NCBI GenBank assembly: GCA_018675335.1
Contig: JABGYH010000009.1
Span: 1 to 64,000, forward strand
Direction of reading: 5' to 3'
Origin: Candidatus Woesearchaeota archaeon
Lineage (GTDB): Archaea > Nanobdellota > Nanobdellia > Woesearchaeales > UBA11576
Length of the DNA stretch: 64,000 nucleotides
Position numbers and translations under genes: made by a program. Numbering within the stretch: position 1 is the stretch's first letter; each line of letters begins with the position of its first letter. Shown here one piece after another: positions 29,058-38,336 of the stretch. The notes beneath the pieces are model-generated. The model ran no database searches. It worked only from the letters and a program-made list of their open reading frames with translations, and had not been told where the DNA came from.

Positions 29058-30884
29058 ATGTCACTTGATGATATTTTATTAGGAATTATGCAATCTAAAG
29101 AAGGTTCAATCCTAATAGTTGATGATTTCTGCGATTTTAATCTTTTTGGAGATATAGCTTATGATCACGTTCCAAACGAAGAAGAAATCGAAAAATTTGC
29201 AAGAGAAAAATTAGGAATCGATCCACTATCAATGGATTCCAATAGCAAAGGAAACACAATTTTCATAAGAGATTTTACTCATGATCAGATCCACCAAGAA
29301 AATTCAACATATAAAACATACAAACAAATCAATCCAAATCCAGATGTTATCCTAGTTAATGCAAATCAACAAACATTTGTGAATTTAGCAGATTTACTTA
29401 AATCAATTTCAACATTTAAAAAACTTGAAAAAGAATTTCCAGAAAGCGAAGTAATTTTATATTTCCCAAATTATGAACATGAGGCCCTTAACAACACAAT
29501 AAAACACGTAACAAAAACATTAGGCTTTGACTTAGATGAAATGAATGTGAAATATTTTAGTCAAAAAACATATCCAACTCTAATGCACATGCTTTGCTAC
29601 GAAATAACAGGAACTATGCATGGAAGACACGGACGCGAATCATTATCAGCATTACAACACGAATATAAAAATCAAATGTGGGACAACTATGTGAACTTCA
29701 TAGATACATCATTAAATAATGGAAATCAACAAACCCATATGCCTTATCAATTTCTAATTTTAAGTGATCGTGAAAAAATTCTCCTAGGAGAATACCAACC
29801 AAACAATCGCAAAGTAACAGTCGCAGCATTAGACGAAGAAGTCAATCAAGATTTGTTAGATAAATGTGCTGCAATTTTTGTAGATAATTCTTGGGAACCA
29901 AATCATCCCACTGCAATGGGAAACGGAATAGAACGATTAAGAAAACTGCGAACACAATTAAGAGATAGACAAGTTCCAATTATTTATCAAACAGGTCATC
30001 CACTTAGCAAATTTAGTGAACAAGAAAAACAAGAACTTAAGGATCTTGGAGCAATTCTCGCAACAAAAGATTTATTTCCAAAAGTTTGTAGAGGACAAAC
30101 TAGCGCACAAAAAGAAAGTAACATAGGCGAATTAGTTAAACACAACTCCCAATTAAAAAAATATGTTTCTCAAGTTTATGATTTTAATAATGGCAATTTA
30201 TTAGGCGAAAACGAAACTTTCGTAGTTTGCTCAAAAATTGTTGATGAAACAAAAGAACCAAATCAAGATAAATTAGAATTATTTAAAAAATTAGGAATAA
30301 CTGACGGAATTTTTTCTCACAGAATGTATGTCCTATCAATGCTGCATACAGAATTAAAAACAGAGGTAAATAATCCAACATTTAAACCAACAGTGAAACA
30401 ATTTTTTTCATATGACAGAATTAAAGAAGAATTAGGCGACCTAGTCGAACCATTCGAAAAAGTCTACACAAACATAACAAAAAACAAAGCGCATTACGAA
30501 AAAAGAACCATCACACATAATGATGCCAAAGAAGATAATTGGTTTGCATCCCAAGTTTTAGGAGATTTTTCAGGAGCAGCGCCAGGACCAGAATACAAAG
30601 ACTTAGCTAGATCAATGTTAGATGAAGAAGACGAATTTACTTTTGCAACAGACATATCAAAAGTAGATGAACAAATAAATAATTACTTTAAATTAAGAAC
30701 TCATGCAGATTCAGAATTCACCCTAAACAGCACCACATTTAGAAGACGAGTTCATGAAGCTATGTTAACTGAAAGTTTAAGACTAGCATGCTTTATGAAA
30801 AAAGATTATAAAAAACGAGAAAAAGTAGAAGGTTATCTAAAAGTAGCTAAAACATATCATGAATCACTCCAACAAAATTCCTAA
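29058..30884 (+). CDS. Receiver-like segments fused to an APH/choline-kinase-type phosphotransferase
   Basis: 608 residues. Near the N-terminus SILIVDDFCD looks like receiver strand 1 with its acidic pair, and DVILVNANQ like strand 3. Residues ~255-345 again look receiver-like: AAIFVDNSWE, VPIIYQTGHPLS and LGAILATKDLF, the order of strands 3, 4 and 5 with conserved Thr and Lys. The last ~170 residues carry H487-N-D489-x4-N494 (THNDAKEDNW) and a following GDFSGAAPGPEYKDLA with D503. This is the Brenner-type catalytic loop and metal Asp of aminoglycoside/choline kinase-like enzymes. I do not recognise this combination. The two domains are read by eye. The gene's last 21 bases overlap the convergent PhoU/AbrB gene. 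Confidence 0.6.
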   Translation: MSLDDILLGIMQSKEGSILIVDDFCDFNLFGDIAYDHVPNEEEIEKFAREKLGIDPLSMDSNSKGNTIFIRDFTHDQIHQENSTYKTYKQINPNPDVILVNANQQTFVNLADLLKSISTFKKLEKEFPESEVILYFPNYEHEALNNTIKHVTKTLGFDLDEMNVKYFSQKTYPTLMHMLCYEITGTMHGRHGRESLSALQHEYKNQMWDNYVNFIDTSLNNGNQQTHMPYQFLILSDREKILLGEYQPNNRKVTVAALDEEVNQDLLDKCAAIFVDNSWEPNHPTAMGNGIERLRKLRTQLRDRQVPIIYQTGHPLSKFSEQEKQELKDLGAILATKDLFPKVCRGQTSAQKESNIGELVKHNSQLKKYVSQVYDFNNGNLLGENETFVVCSKIVDETKEPNQDKLELFKKLGITDGIFSHRMYVLSMLHTELKTEVNNPTFKPTVKQFFSYDRIKEELGDLVEPFEKVYTNITKNKAHYEKRTITHNDAKEDNWFASQVLGDFSGAAPGPEYKDLARSMLDEEDEFTFATDISKVDEQINNYFKLRTHADSEFTLNSTTFRRRVHEAMLTESLRLACFMKKDYKKREKVEGYLKVAKTYHESLQQNS

Positions 30885-31784
30885 CATAGGAGATGTTGTT
30901 AAATAAATTAATCGGGATAATTCTCCAAAATAATATAATACAATTGTTCCTTCACCTTTAGATTTTTTAAGCAAAGAATACACTTCACCATAAAGCACCT
31001 TACGACAAGAATTATTAACTTTTTCTAAACCACTCAAATCTTTCTTAAAAAATGAAGAATATAATAAATCAAATTCTGATTCTAACTTATTAAAAAGTTT
31101 TAAACTTTCTTTAGAAATAACCAGACTTTTTTGTTTAGCCAAAAATTTACATAAATGTTTTAAACTACTTTGAATCAAAATTAAATAAGTATAAACTCCC
31201 CAATGAAAATTTATTCTTTCTTCAGTAAATTTCTTTTTTGAAATATTTCGCCTACAAAAATTATTGTACTGCCCAACTTTTGAAGTTAATTTCTCAACTC
31301 GCTTCAAATTATTAACTTGTCCCTCTGCCAAATCTAATTTTACTAATTCAAATGTTTCTTTTATCAACAAAAACATTCTTCTAACTAAAGTTTCTTGTTT
31401 TTTTCCACTCGGTTCTGCAACATTTTCAAGAATCAAATAATCAGTACCTTTCCCAGTAATTTCCACCCCCAATAAAAATTCTTCAACAGAAGTTTCAACA
31501 TATTCAATTTGTTCTTTATTTACTCCCACCAATTTAATTTTATCATAACCCAACCTATACAAATCACTTAATTGAGTTCGTATAATTTTTTTCTCACTTG
31601 ATTTAAGATCAATTGTAATTTCTTTTTTATCCAAAATAGTTTCAGCAGAAAATAACAATCCCTCGCCAACTTCGAGAATATCTATTTCATTACCTGGCTT
31701 AAGGTTTTTCAAATCTATCCATTTTTTAGGTAGATACACAGTCATTCCCCCTCCACCACCTTGTTTTATGAGTTTACGCTTCAT
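30864..31784 (-). CDS. AbrB/SpoVT-type DNA-binding plus PhoU-like regulator
   Basis: 306 residues. The N-terminal MKRKLIKQGGGGGMTVYLPKKWIDLKNLKPGNEIDILE is the swapped-hairpin AbrB/MazE fold as found fused to PhoU in archaea. The rest (~95-300) is helical with VRRMFLLIKETFELVKLDL and LTSKVGQYNNFCRRNI, resembling PhoU-type three-helix repeats. Such proteins are annotated as phosphate-uptake regulators, but no Pst transporter is in this window. The divergent region leads to the receiver operon at 31948; the 3' end overlaps the 608-aa gene by 21 bases on the opposite strand. Confidence 0.7.
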   Translation of the reverse strand: MKRKLIKQGGGGGMTVYLPKKWIDLKNLKPGNEIDILEVGEGLLFSAETILDKKEITIDLKSSEKKIIRTQLSDLYRLGYDKIKLVGVNKEQIEYVETSVEEFLLGVEITGKGTDYLILENVAEPSGKKQETLVRRMFLLIKETFELVKLDLAEGQVNNLKRVEKLTSKVGQYNNFCRRNISKKKFTEERINFHWGVYTYLILIQSSLKHLCKFLAKQKSLVISKESLKLFNKLESEFDLLYSSFFKKDLSGLEKVNNSCRKVLYGEVYSLLKKSKGEGTIVLYYFGELSRLIYLTTSPMLGILLE

Positions 31785-31947: not shown

Positions 31948-32571
31948 ATGACAAAATTAGAAATCTTAGTTATTGATGATAAATTAGAGAATCGTGAATC
32001 TGCAAAACAATTACTTGCAGAACATAATGTTGATGTCGCAAGCAATTTAGTTGAAGCATTGACTTTAATGGGACATAAAGTAAATTATGAATCAGACATT
32101 GAACCCAAAAAATATGATGTTGTTTTGACAGATATGATGTTTCCAATGGGTGGAAGAAGATCACAAGATATTGTAAACATGAGTCAAGAAGGAGAATGGC
32201 AAAGACATGAAGACCAACCTTTAGGATATTCAGTGGTTCTTTTTGCAGCAAAACAAGGAATAGCTTATGCAGCAGTTCTTACAGGAATGAATCATCACAC
32301 AGGACCAATATCTGCAACTTTTGATTTATTCTATGATCGAGACAATGAGCATCAACGACAAGAGTTCACAATTAATGGAACTAAATGCATCATGTTTGAT
32401 GAAAGAGATCACTCTTCTATTTACACACTTACAGATGGAACTCTAACAGACCAAAGCCCATACAGAGTTTCAGAAGATCAAAGATCTCAATATGTGCAAG
32501 AAGGAAAACATGGTTTCAAAACTGCAAAAAATTGGAAAGCAGTTCTTGATGCATTAAATGTTGAGAAATAA
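31948..32571 (+). CDS. Stand-alone receiver-domain protein
   Basis: 207 residues. LEILVIDDKLE gives the acidic pair D10-D11, YDVVLTDMMFPMGG the phospho-acceptor D62, and AAVLTGMNHH the Thr-type residue T113. A long insertion between strands 3 and 4 and an extra NHHTGPISATFDLF segment set it apart from CheY; I have the impression of a receiver subfamily seen in candidate-phyla bacteria and DPANN archaea. There is no output domain and no histidine kinase nearby. TTGGAGGAATTAAC gives a strong Shine-Dalgarno. First gene of the apparent operon 31948-35454. Confidence 0.72.
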   Translation: MTKLEILVIDDKLENRESAKQLLAEHNVDVASNLVEALTLMGHKVNYESDIEPKKYDVVLTDMMFPMGGRRSQDIVNMSQEGEWQRHEDQPLGYSVVLFAAKQGIAYAAVLTGMNHHTGPISATFDLFYDRDNEHQRQEFTINGTKCIMFDERDHSSIYTLTDGTLTDQSPYRVSEDQRSQYVQEGKHGFKTAKNWKAVLDALNVEK

Positions 32572-32630: not shown

Positions 32631-32646
32631 ATTGGAGGGCGTAAAA

Positions 32647-33204
32647 ATGAATGAAACAGATGGAGACAAAAAAAGAATTATTGTAGGACTATTTAGTCCA
32701 TATTTATATGAGAACATGTCTGAGCGTTTTGATAGCAAATATATCACAATGCAAAAAGAAAAGTTCGGATACGAATCAGAAAATCTTAATGGAACAAAAA
32801 CTCTTTCAACAGACAAATTTATTGTTAGACTTGATCGTCAGGGAGATCACGAATCTAGAGGGCCAGATGATCTTACACTAGGAATAATTGGATCTACTGA
32901 TGCTGCAGAAGATGATGTGAGAAGTTGGAAAGGTTCAGGATTAGTAGTTGCTAGATTTAGTATTTTTTATGGCAACCCAAGTCAATATACAGGAAACTAT
33001 CCTGAAGAATCAGGTTATTCACTAGACTTTCCAAAAGATATTGCAACTGTAAGAGAATTTTTACATGATGATTCAGTGCTAGATGCTTTAGTTGCTAGAG
33101 AAGAATCACAAATTAGAAGCGCAATTGAATCATTTAATTCAGGCGTTGCAAATCCAGTATTAGTTACTGATTATTTACACTATGCTTTGAGGTGTAGAAA
33201 ATGA
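32647..33204 (+). CDS. Hypothetical protein of the receiver operon
   Basis: 185 residues from ATG 32647, preceded by GGAGGGC (32633-32639); the TTG at 32632 overlaps the ribosome site and is rejected. No family recognised. Visible features: KKRIIVGLFSPYLYENMSERFD, DDLTLGIIGSTDAAEDDVRSWKGSGLVVARFSIFYGN, and a helical acidic C-terminus ending in HYALRCRK. Predicted soluble alpha/beta. Its stop overlaps the next start as ATGA, so translation is coupled to the degenerate receiver protein. Confidence 0.72.
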   Translation: MNETDGDKKRIIVGLFSPYLYENMSERFDSKYITMQKEKFGYESENLNGTKTLSTDKFIVRLDRQGDHESRGPDDLTLGIIGSTDAAEDDVRSWKGSGLVVARFSIFYGNPSQYTGNYPEESGYSLDFPKDIATVREFLHDDSVLDALVAREESQIRSAIESFNSGVANPVLVTDYLHYALRCRK

Positions 33205-33812
33205 GTTATAACAAAGACAACTCAACAAATCAAACTCCTATTGATGACTTAATAAACGCAATGTATAGCTCAACAGGATTTTTAAAACCAGGAGAAAAAA
33301 TTGATCCGTTTGCAGCAACTATGATTGATAAGGGTGGGATAAGATCTTTATTCAATCCAGGAGTCAGTTACCAAGATTTTAGAGATGGAAGAATATCAAA
33401 ATCAATTTTGATTGTAAATAGTGCTTCTGAAGTTAGAAATAGATTACGAAAATCATTAGATGGAACAGTGTTTACAGTTCATGCTGCTGCAAACTATCAA
33501 GATGCATTAAAAATTATTGAATCGCATCCTGGGTTTAGGTATGCAGTTATTGATAATATGCTTCCAGTTTCTAGAGGAGCACAACCAGAACCATTTGCAG
33601 ATGTTTTGTATGACAAAATTACAGAAAAATCTTCTGAGGCTAGAGTTTTTGTTGTTGGTGAAAATGTCGAACAATTAACTAGAGATTATATCCAAAGAAT
33701 GCCAATTGATTCAACGTCAACTAGAGACATTTGGAAAACCCTGATCAAAGATTCTGAAACATATGTTCGACCAAAAGACAATGACGCAGAACCTAAAAAT
33801 AATGGCGAATAA
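33201..33812 (+). CDS. Degenerate receiver-domain protein
   Basis: 203 residues. After ~65 residues without known motifs, KSILIVNSASEVRNRLRKSLDGTVFTVHAAANYQDALKII reads as receiver strand 1 to helix 2, and YAVIDNMLPVSRG as strand 3 with acceptor-position D118. The acidic pair that holds Mg2+ is replaced by N73-S74, so normal phosphotransfer is doubtful; it could be a pseudo-receiver or phosphorylation-independent partner. ARVFVVGENVEQL matches strand 4. Overlaps the gene before by ATGA, and the phosphoesterase gene starts one base after its stop. Confidence 0.68.
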   Translation: MSYNKDNSTNQTPIDDLINAMYSSTGFLKPGEKIDPFAATMIDKGGIRSLFNPGVSYQDFRDGRISKSILIVNSASEVRNRLRKSLDGTVFTVHAAANYQDALKIIESHPGFRYAVIDNMLPVSRGAQPEPFADVLYDKITEKSSEARVFVVGENVEQLTRDYIQRMPIDSTSTRDIWKTLIKDSETYVRPKDNDAEPKNNGE

Positions 33813-33813
33813 A

Positions 33814-35454
33814 ATGAAAATAATAATTACTTCAGACACTCATAAAGAAAGAGAACAAATTGAAATGGTTAAACAATATGCTATTGATAATGGCATTAAA
33901 ACCATTGTTGATTGTGGAGATCTCCACGGAGAAATTGATGCATTCGCAGGAATTAATCTTCATTCTGTTTTTTGGGATGAAGCTTCTGGCGGAATGGATC
34001 GATGGGAATTTTCAAGCGAAATGAGATCAATTGATGCTACAATGCATGAAAATGGAAGTACTTTTGTTTTAGATAATACTGCAATTTATATTAGACACAA
34101 CTTAGCAGATTATGAATCTCAAATTCCTCAAATAAGATTTAATCAAGCAAAAACTGCGCTGGATGATCTCGTGACAAGAGAAGAACAGGATCTAAAAAAA
34201 TTAGTTTTATTTGGGCACACCCACAAGTTTCATTTACATAAAGATGAAAATGTATTGGCATTAAATCCAGGATCACTAGGATTATCTGAACCTAATGCAT
34301 TTATTGTTTTTGATACAGAAACAAGAGAAGTTGAATACAGAACTAAAGACACAACAATACTCAAAATTAATGATTACGAAAACACAGACGTAGTACAAAT
34401 AAGAGATTTGATAGTAAATGATAATGGAAGTATCAATAGTTATATTGCAAGATCTAATGATGACCAAGAAAGATTAGTTTTTCAAGAAACAAATTCACCC
34501 AAGTATAAACGAATCAATCATGTGCACGCAATTATTGATGATTATGATACTCCAAGAACTCTTGAAGAAAAAGCATTAGGTGTAACAAAAAACAATGGAA
34601 AAGAAGTAGTTGTTTTTGAAGGTAAAGAAACTGCAGAATATGATTCAATTATAAAAATTACTGATGTGCATGATGCAATAACTAAAAAAAGAACTGTTAT
34701 GTTTTTAGCAGAAAAGAATGGTCAACAAGTATGGGCAACTCTGAATGGAAAAGAAACAAATGCTTATGGACTGTTTGATGAAACTCCCAAATTATTTGAT
34801 GGTGAAGTATTTTATATTGCAAAGCGAGAAAAAGAAGATGACAACGTCAATCACACACGAAATAGAAAAGAACAACCAAGTATTTTAGTTAGAGGATGGA
34901 GTGATGAATCAACCGAATTAATGGAGTATAAAATAATTAATTTAAACAAACTAACTGTAACAAATTCAGATATTGCAATAGTTGCAGGAAATAGTTGGGA
35001 TTCATCTTGCGTCAACCATAATGGTCAAGAAACAGAAACATATGATTCAATTAGAGATGTTACTTTTTTAGACAATAAACTAGCATTTGTAGCTCGAAAC
35101 GGAGATGAAGAATTTGTTGTTTATGATGGCTGCGAACAAGATCATTACCAAACACCAAGTAAATGGGATCGAGCGATTAGCAATATTACATTAGTTGATG
35201 GAAAACTTACTTACAGCATTATTGAAAACAATGAAGAAAGAGTTATTTGTGATGGTGAGATGGTTGCAGGTCCTTTTCCTAAAACAGATTATTATGCACC
35301 AATCAAAAAATTAGATGAGTTGGATGGAGAATTAATTTGTTTAACAAAGAATAATGGAGTCGTGCAAATTCACTACAAAGGTCAAACAATTTCATTTGAC
35401 AAAGATAGCTACAAATCACACAGAGAACAACTAGAAGTAATGTTTGCGAATTGA
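33814..35454 (+). CDS. Calcineurin-like phosphoesterase with C-terminal repeat (propeller-like) region
   Basis: 546 residues from ATG 33814, one base after the previous stop; a longer frame from 33763 would overlap that gene by 50 bases. Residues 1-175 are a YfcE-like metallophosphoesterase: ITSDTHK (D8, H10), VDCGDLHGE (D36, H38), AIYIRHN, and FGHTHKFH with NPGSLG. The usual GNHD/E motif is not seen. From ~220 to the end there are about six repeats of ~50 residues with the theme strand-DGKLxYxxxxNxxxxVxxxGxExxxYDxI, likely a beta-propeller or similar beta repeat. Possible roles include phosphatase of the operon's receivers or a cyclic-nucleotide enzyme. Both are inference. Confidence 0.75.
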   Translation: MKIIITSDTHKEREQIEMVKQYAIDNGIKTIVDCGDLHGEIDAFAGINLHSVFWDEASGGMDRWEFSSEMRSIDATMHENGSTFVLDNTAIYIRHNLADYESQIPQIRFNQAKTALDDLVTREEQDLKKLVLFGHTHKFHLHKDENVLALNPGSLGLSEPNAFIVFDTETREVEYRTKDTTILKINDYENTDVVQIRDLIVNDNGSINSYIARSNDDQERLVFQETNSPKYKRINHVHAIIDDYDTPRTLEEKALGVTKNNGKEVVVFEGKETAEYDSIIKITDVHDAITKKRTVMFLAEKNGQQVWATLNGKETNAYGLFDETPKLFDGEVFYIAKREKEDDNVNHTRNRKEQPSILVRGWSDESTELMEYKIINLNKLTVTNSDIAIVAGNSWDSSCVNHNGQETETYDSIRDVTFLDNKLAFVARNGDEEFVVYDGCEQDHYQTPSKWDRAISNITLVDGKLTYSIIENNEERVICDGEMVAGPFPKTDYYAPIKKLDELDGELICLTKNNGVVQIHYKGQTISFDKDSYKSHREQLEVMFAN

Positions 35455-37051: not shown

Positions 37052-37879
37052 ATGAAAAAAACAATTAATGTTAAAGGAAAAGAAATTAAAATTTTTAGTC
37101 AAAAAGAAGACGAATACATTTCTTTAACAGATATTGCAAGATATAAAAACCCAAAAAGAACAGATTACTTAATTTCGAACTGGATTAGAAATAGAGAAAC
37201 GATTGAATATTTAGGTCTGTGGGAAAAACTTAATAATCCTCAATTCAATCCCATCGAATTCAATGGGTTTAGAATCAAGTCAGGATTAAACAGTTTTATA
37301 CTATCATCCAAACAATGGATTAAAAAAACTGGAGCCATAGGGATAATATCCAAAAGTGGCAGATATGGCGGAACCTTTGCCCATAAAGATATAGCATTCG
37401 AATTTGCTACTTGGATTTCTATCAAATTTAAACTTTATTTAATAAAAGAGTATCAAAGATTAAAAATTGAAGAAAATGAAAAATTAAAGTTAGGATGGAA
37501 TGTTAAACGTGAATTAGTTAAAATTAATTATGCAATCCACACAAATGCAATCAAAGAGAATTTAATACCTCCTGAGATTTCTTCAAAAGAAGCAAAAATC
37601 GTATATGCTTCAGAGGCAGATATTTTAAACAAAGCATTGTTTGGTAAAACTGCAAAAGAATGGTCAAAACAAAATCAGATTCATAAAGGAAATATAAGAG
37701 ATTATGCAAACATCACTCAATTAGTTATTTTAGCCAATTTAGAATCCTTAAATTCAGAGTTTATCAAACAAAAAATTTCTCAATCAAATCGATTAATTAA
37801 GCTAAACCAAATAGCAATTTATCAAACAAAAATTTTAATAAATACTTATCAAATAAAAAAACTAGAAAACAAAGGGTGA
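37052..37879 (+). CDS. KilA-N domain DNA-binding protein
   Basis: 275 residues. The N-terminal ~135 residues are a KilA-N domain: DEYISLTDIARYKNPKRTDYLISNWIRNRETIEYLGLWE, GRYGGTFAHKDIAFEFATWISIKFKLYLIKEYQRLK. This DNA-binding domain, related to APSES factors, is usual in large DNA viruses, phages and mobile elements. The C-terminus has a second conserved block (EADILNKALFGKTAKEWSKQN) as in many bacterial KilA-N proteins. It may be a captured virus gene. It forms a pair with the GyrI-like gene, which starts four bases after its stop. Confidence 0.88.
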   Translation: MKKTINVKGKEIKIFSQKEDEYISLTDIARYKNPKRTDYLISNWIRNRETIEYLGLWEKLNNPQFNPIEFNGFRIKSGLNSFILSSKQWIKKTGAIGIISKSGRYGGTFAHKDIAFEFATWISIKFKLYLIKEYQRLKIEENEKLKLGWNVKRELVKINYAIHTNAIKENLIPPEISSKEAKIVYASEADILNKALFGKTAKEWSKQNQIHKGNIRDYANITQLVILANLESLNSEFIKQKISQSNRLIKLNQIAIYQTKILINTYQIKKLENKG

Positions 37880-37883
37880 TAAT

Positions 37884-38336
37884 ATGAAAGTAGTTGAAAA
37901 ACCAAATTTTAAAATTGCAGGAATTGGAATTATTACAACAGTTCAAAAGTGCAGTCAAGATCTAAAACCAGGTTGGGATAAGTTTATGAGTCGAATTTCT
38001 GAAATTAATCAAGTTGATCCTTCAAAAGTTTTAGGCTTTTGCAAAGCAACAGATAAAGATGATTGTAGTTTTAAATATATTGCTTGCGCAGAGGTAGCAG
38101 AGGAATTTATAGCTCCGGAAGGAATGGAAATCACCGAAGTTCCTAAAAGTAAATATTTAGTTTTCACACACAAAGGCCCAATTGAAAAAATTGGAGAAAC
38201 TTATGGCGAGATTCAAATGTGCGGAGTTCCAAAATCAAACATGAAACAAAATGGTCTTTGGTTAGAAGTTTATCCTCATAACTATGATCCCTCAAGTAAT
38301 GATTCTGAAATGGAAATATTAGTCGGAGTAAATTAG
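37884..38336 (+). CDS. GyrI-like / AraC effector-binding domain protein
   Basis: 150 residues. MKVVEKPNFKIAGIGIITTV, PGWDKFMSRISEINQ, VLGFCKATDKDDCSFKYIACAEV and ITEVPKSKYLVFTHKGPIEKIGETYGEI follow the GyrI/SHS2 two-fold layout that binds small hydrophobic molecules. The end LEVYPHNYDPSSNDSEMEILVGV is the typical last strand with Glu/Tyr at the pocket. It has no DNA-binding domain; the KilA-N partner upstream could provide one. GGGTGATAAT is both the neighbour's end and its Shine-Dalgarno. Confidence 0.82.
   Translation: MKVVEKPNFKIAGIGIITTVQKCSQDLKPGWDKFMSRISEINQVDPSKVLGFCKATDKDDCSFKYIACAEVAEEFIAPEGMEITEVPKSKYLVFTHKGPIEKIGETYGEIQMCGVPKSNMKQNGLWLEVYPHNYDPSSNDSEMEILVGVN

Follow-up and report, generated by a model that had tools for sequence, protein, structure and literature searches.

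Described systems closest to the locus

YihE/SrkA of E. coli is a Ser/Thr protein kinase, which is reported to phosphorylate protein Ser/Thr in vitro (PMC2877116). This enzyme (1zyl) is the best structural match to the archaeal kinase described here, with which it shares the C-lobe fold and the catalytic residues; however, YihE lacks a receiver and possesses a separate N-lobe, and the identity between the two is 14%. APH(2'') (PF01636) likewise shares the HxDx4N...D core and the C-lobe helices, but the archaeal protein has neither an antibiotic context nor a Gly-loop hairpin, bears a receiver at that place and matches PF01636 below threshold. A different likeness is found in response regulators with enzymatic output, as these also combine a receiver and a catalytic domain in one chain. 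They usually consist of a complete receiver, a linker and a complete output domain. The main text of a census of archaeal two-component systems mentions no protein-kinase or aminoglycoside-kinase output (PMC5847659). Archaeal AbrB-domain PhoU-like proteins, in turn, are comparable to the convergently encoded partner of the kinase.

A single reading frame encodes an APH-fold kinase

The window (the whole stretch of 64,000 nucleotides that was analysed) comes from a Woesearchaeota-type archaeal genome of 1.7 Mb in 9 contigs. On its forward strand, positions 29058..30884 form a single frame of 608 aa, in which a receiver and an APH-fold kinase are recognised from homologues, AlphaFold2 (AF2) models and Foldseek comparisons. 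Codon-position GC of this frame is 45/29/19% in a window of 30% GC, shuffling the window 61 times gave no frame longer than 156 codons, and homologues of 27-37% identity are conserved along the length of the protein; therefore, we consider it a real gene.

A preliminary description, made from the sequence alone, had proposed that this gene fuses receiver-like and APH-type kinase parts. It placed a Brenner-type motif and a metal-binding Asp at H487, D489, N494 and D503, and these residues are indeed where it put them, in the catalytic loop HNDAKEDN (30516..30539, + strand) and in LGDF (D503; 30564..30566, +). They are also kept among homologues: D489, N494 and D503 occur in 10/10 aligned kinase domains and H487 in 8/10, and all four are unchanged across the six closest members. 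An N-lobe Lys, which the same description advised looking for, was found in LFPKVC as K342 (30081..30083, +), the putative beta3 ATP-binding residue; E353 (30114..30116, +) is the alphaC Glu expected to form a salt bridge with it. Neither varies among the six closest members, so that six catalytic residues in total are unchanged in this group.

Sequence profiles recognise this domain poorly. A Pfam and NCBIfam scan of the single 608-aa protein gave nothing above cut-off, and the one kinase family to which Pfam pointed was APH (PF01636), at 16.1 bits against a curated cut-off of 23.2. Structure prediction was more informative once homologues were supplied. While the full-length AF2 model, built from four sequences, was weak except for the C-terminal half (pLDDT 59.5), a model of residues 225-608 from ten sequences reached a pLDDT of 85.5 and a pTM of 0.83 and shows a two-lobed kinase. 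When it was compared with the PDB by Foldseek, the top match was YihE/SrkA (E 1.2e-5, probability 1.00), followed by APH(2'')-IVa and many APH-fold kinases, including macrolide kinases and maltokinase. TM-scores of the Foldseek matches were moderate, about 0.3-0.5, as is expected when a chimera is compared with single-domain targets. A search of the PDB by sequence yielded nothing but chance matches, to cytohesin and dihydrodipicolinate synthase. With the HxDx4N motif and metal Asp, the beta3 Lys/alphaC Glu pair and the two-lobed fold, the domain (residues 339-608; 30072..30881, +) is of the APH/choline-kinase (PKL) fold, and in the alignment, the AF2 model and the Foldseek comparison it begins at strand beta3.

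A receiver stands in the predicted place of the glycine-rich loop

Residues ~230-336 (29745..30065, +) form a receiver domain, predicted by AF2 in the order b-a-b-a-b-a-b-a-b and matched by Foldseek to the receivers of ArlR (6is1) and KdpE at probability 1.00. Two segments which had been read as receiver strands 4 and 5, VPIIYQTGH (307-315) and GAILATK (331-337), are strands in the AF2 models as well. As in CheY-like domains, an Asp is found at the end of strand 3 (D276, the putative phospho-acceptor; 29883..29885, +), a T or S after strand 4 (T312 in this protein) and a Lys after strand 5 (K337; 30066..30068, +); D276 and K337 are invariant, and position 312 is T or S, in all four receiver-type members. 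The acidic pocket is less regular. Position 237 is D, H, D and D across the four, and the second acidic residue after strand 1 is absent from each of them. Mg-dependent phosphorylation of the receiver is thus not assured.

In the model, the receiver strand at 332-336 is followed by a two-residue turn, the kinase strand at 339-345 (with K342) and alphaC at 347-360 (with E353). Further strands extend up to residue ~393, and a helical C-lobe follows. Given so short a turn, receiver strand 5 probably pairs with kinase strand 3 in one sheet. Receiver helix 5 is missing from this model and the kinase domain takes its place. Between receiver strand 5 and kinase beta3 no beta1/Gly-loop/beta2 hairpin is present, either in the model or in the alignment of the four receiver-type members, and ATP binding is uncertain for this reason. 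Two more distant kinases (L004 and L005) have extra sequence resembling beta1-loop-beta2 at this position. Neither of the two outcomes named beforehand as refuting the fusion, the lack of a predicted two-lobed kinase fold or poor conservation of H487, D489, N494 and D503, was observed. Hence the proposed fusion stands in that both parts are present, but it needs to be amended, as they are not two complete domains in series: in the model, the receiver is in the place of the kinase hairpin.

The N-terminal region (residues 1-229; 29058..29744, +) starts with ILIVDD and shows an alpha/beta pattern, which suggests a degenerate second receiver, although AF2 confidence is mostly below pLDDT 50 here. 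The preliminary description made no remark on the uncertain alpha/beta region at residues 1-185, nor on the gene which overlaps the kinase 3' end.

The family is rare and its architecture appears undescribed

Among 288 genomes of the order, relatives were detected in G162 (37% identity), G025 (31%), G107 and G172, and by sequence search the family is sporadic (5/288). A single-sequence scan of the genome collection gave nothing, whereas an alignment used as query gave four; with the alignment, G564 also came up, a Woesearchaeota genome which shares the class but belongs to a different order, together with more distant kinases, among them those of G321 and G263. The receiver-type architecture is found in four genomes, namely the source genome, G162, G025 and G564. 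In G107 and G172 the kinase part follows a different N-terminus and there is sequence at the Gly-loop position. G564 was the sole addition with the full architecture in a class-wide sample of 378 genomes, so the family is rare. No relatives of the 608-aa protein were found among viral contigs, plasmids or PADLOC models. A Hanks kinase from the same family (L015) matched just via the general kinase motif and was set aside.

The author of the preliminary description knew of no established family with this order of domains, and we agree: no family model in Pfam or NCBIfam describes such a fusion, nor does the searchable literature, and the arrangement appears undescribed. No paper was found on a tail-to-tail overlapping AbrB-PhoU/kinase pairing, or on a link between Woesearchaeota, PhoU and kinases, which is weak evidence, as many subscription papers lay outside the search.

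An AbrB-PhoU gene converges on the kinase gene

A gene on the reverse strand (30864..31784) encodes a 306-aa regulator with an AbrB/MazE N-terminus and a PhoU-like part, and it converges on the kinase gene with a 21-bp overlap. Its relatives match AbrB in 19/21 cases and PhoU in 5/21 (best E 2.3e-10; phoU_full in 3). The copy in the window has a weak AbrB/MazE match and no PhoU match, so that its PhoU label comes from homology to these relatives. Such a gene converges on the kinase at all four receiver-type loci (gaps of -21, 0, -21 and -86, that is, an overlap of 0-86 bp), and the same pair is found beside more distant kinases.

AbrB-PhoU genes as such are common, being present in 325/353 genomes of the order. 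The source genome has 16 paralogues (contigs C1, C2, C3, C4, C5, C7 and C9; L051-L065). Twelve of them have no recognisable kinase partner; a minority is paired with a convergent kinase-like gene, and the others lie in ordinary surroundings. In the kinase slot, C7 carries a Hanks-type kinase, and the two partners on C1 and C4 are divergent and only uncertainly kinase-like. Of 58 AbrB-PhoU genes examined, 51 have a downstream neighbour that converges on them; the downstream neighbour carries the strict HxDx4N...D motif in 28/58 cases and the upstream neighbour in 0/56. When 42 convergent partners were scanned with Pfam, 22 matched Pkinase and 8 matched APH. These pairing rates are not unbiased, because loci were ranked by how closely their AbrB-PhoU resembles kinase-paired copies and the 42 partners were picked from the 51 as plausible kinases. 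On the upstream side (38 neighbours), no kinase was among the 25 listed of 32 families, and 4 were receivers. Kinase-paired members cluster in the PhoU tree, with 10 changes versus 18.9 when shuffled, on a tree with few well-supported branches. Across the order, kinases of many types are found in this convergent layout.

A divergent operon of receiver-like genes lies beyond the regulator

Beyond the AbrB-PhoU gene and divergent from it, the forward strand encodes a 207-aa receiver-like protein (31948..32571; homologue in the G162 cassette), a 190-aa protein without a family match (32632..33204; homologues in the G162 and G025 cassettes) and a 203-aa receiver-like protein (33201..33812; homologue in the G025 cassette). 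G564 has receiver-like genes at this place, and each of the four receiver-type loci is accompanied by a divergent operon that includes receiver-like or co-conserved genes. At the end of the operon in the window lies a 563-aa calcineurin-like phosphoesterase (33763..35454, +; PF12850, E 7e-18), whose C-terminal region is long. It is possibly the phosphatase of the cassette; the other cassettes examined hold no homologue of it. A single canonical histidine kinase was found in the source genome, on another contig, and small phosphodonors are possible for D276.

A proposed receiver-gated protein kinase and its alternatives

The reading that we favour, in which we place about even confidence, is a receiver-gated signal-transduction protein kinase which acts on the AbrB-PhoU regulator. 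We infer its catalytic activity, the phosphorylation of D276, the coupling that gates the kinase, the protein substrate and the DNA target from the features above. The receiver (D276, T312, K337) would be a phospho-switch built in at the Gly-loop place of an APH-fold kinase, with its strand 5 passing straight into beta3 of the kinase. On phosphorylation of, or binding to, the receiver, strand 5 and K337 would shift; the two-residue turn would pass this movement on to K342 and the ATP site, and the kinase would be switched on or off. The kinase would then phosphorylate a protein, most likely the convergently encoded AbrB-PhoU regulator, which in turn would control the divergent operon of receiver-like proteins. 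Several points count against this reading: the Gly-loop is missing, the acidic pocket is incomplete, the single canonical histidine kinase found lies on another contig, the AbrB-PhoU loci were not an unbiased choice, 12 of the 16 paralogues lack a recognisable kinase partner, and the convergence of two genes may have other causes.

The main rival, to which we grant a minor but serious share of probability, is a pseudokinase or scaffold. Without beta1/Gly-loop/beta2 the kinase part would bind a partner (AbrB-PhoU or another receiver) non-catalytically, with the receiver as a protein-binding or sensing module, and this would agree with the lack of any strand between receiver beta5 and kinase beta3 and with the incomplete acidic pocket. 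However, six catalytic residues, of a kind usually lost in pseudokinases, are invariant at 27-37% identity, and the Gly-loop varies greatly across atypical kinases. An APH/choline-kinase-type enzyme, in which the receiver regulates phosphorylation of a small molecule, seems to us unlikely. Structural matches do include APH(2''), macrolide kinases and maltokinase, and APH is the sole kinase family that Pfam recognised, if below cut-off, but YihE, the top structural match, is a protein kinase, Hanks-type protein kinases fill this slot in other genomes, and the neighbours are signalling-type proteins.

The AbrB/MazE N-terminus of the partner, together with the sporadic distribution, could also indicate a kinase toxin of HipA-like action that is restrained by this partner. 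We find this quite improbable, as the genes are convergent at every receiver-type locus, while HipA-type systems form co-directional operons; moreover, the genome has 16 members of the PhoU-like family from which the partner comes, PADLOC gave no match, and it would be unusual for a toxin to carry a receiver. There is, finally, very little to recommend the view that the receiver is just a generic alpha/beta (Rossmann-like) N-terminal domain: Pfam Response_reg does not match the 608-aa protein and Ras-like folds are weak Foldseek matches to this part, yet D, T/S and K are at canonical positions in 4/4 members, Foldseek returns receivers at probability 1.00, and receiver-like genes adjoin.

If the receiver does gate the kinase, the two main prokaryotic phosphorylation languages would be joined in one protein, and a kinase N-lobe could be rebuilt from an unrelated domain. 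Only tentatively do we suggest the broader idea that, with a receiver in place of the glycine-rich loop, Asp phosphorylation would directly shape the ATP site, making the protein a one-chain bridge from Asp- to Ser/Thr-based signalling and one case of a large undescribed archaeal signalling layout, in which an AbrB-PhoU gene and its own kinase gene, of variable type, stand tail-to-tail. Through the recurring convergent pair, a signalling system open to experiment would become available in Woesearchaeota, a poorly understood group, and pairs of kinase and target could be predicted from gene order.

Other genes at related loci

The Hanks-type kinase of the source genome (L067:5258-7141 on C7; PF00069, E 4e-29) has a hydrophobic segment and a 58-bp convergent overlap with its AbrB-PhoU gene. 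Two kinase-slot proteins of the same genome (L072:5163-6548 and L077:5227-6420) are very divergent and may be degenerate kinases; L077 has CRDTVAKN...IIDGD. Convergent AbrB-PhoU partners at L100, L101, L120, L122 and L125 show no clear kinase motif and are possibly further kinase-like families. Large GHKL (HSP90/MutL-like) ATPase genes follow the divergent operons of two genomes, G162 and G564 (L017:11327-13803, L086:14654-16798). Weak TmtA matches to neighbouring GHKL ATPases of other genomes were rejected, as they reflect the shared ATPase fold alone. KilA-N domains are commoner in viruses and mobile elements; in the window, a KilA-N domain gene adjoins a GyrI-like/Cass2 effector-binding gene at 37052-38336.
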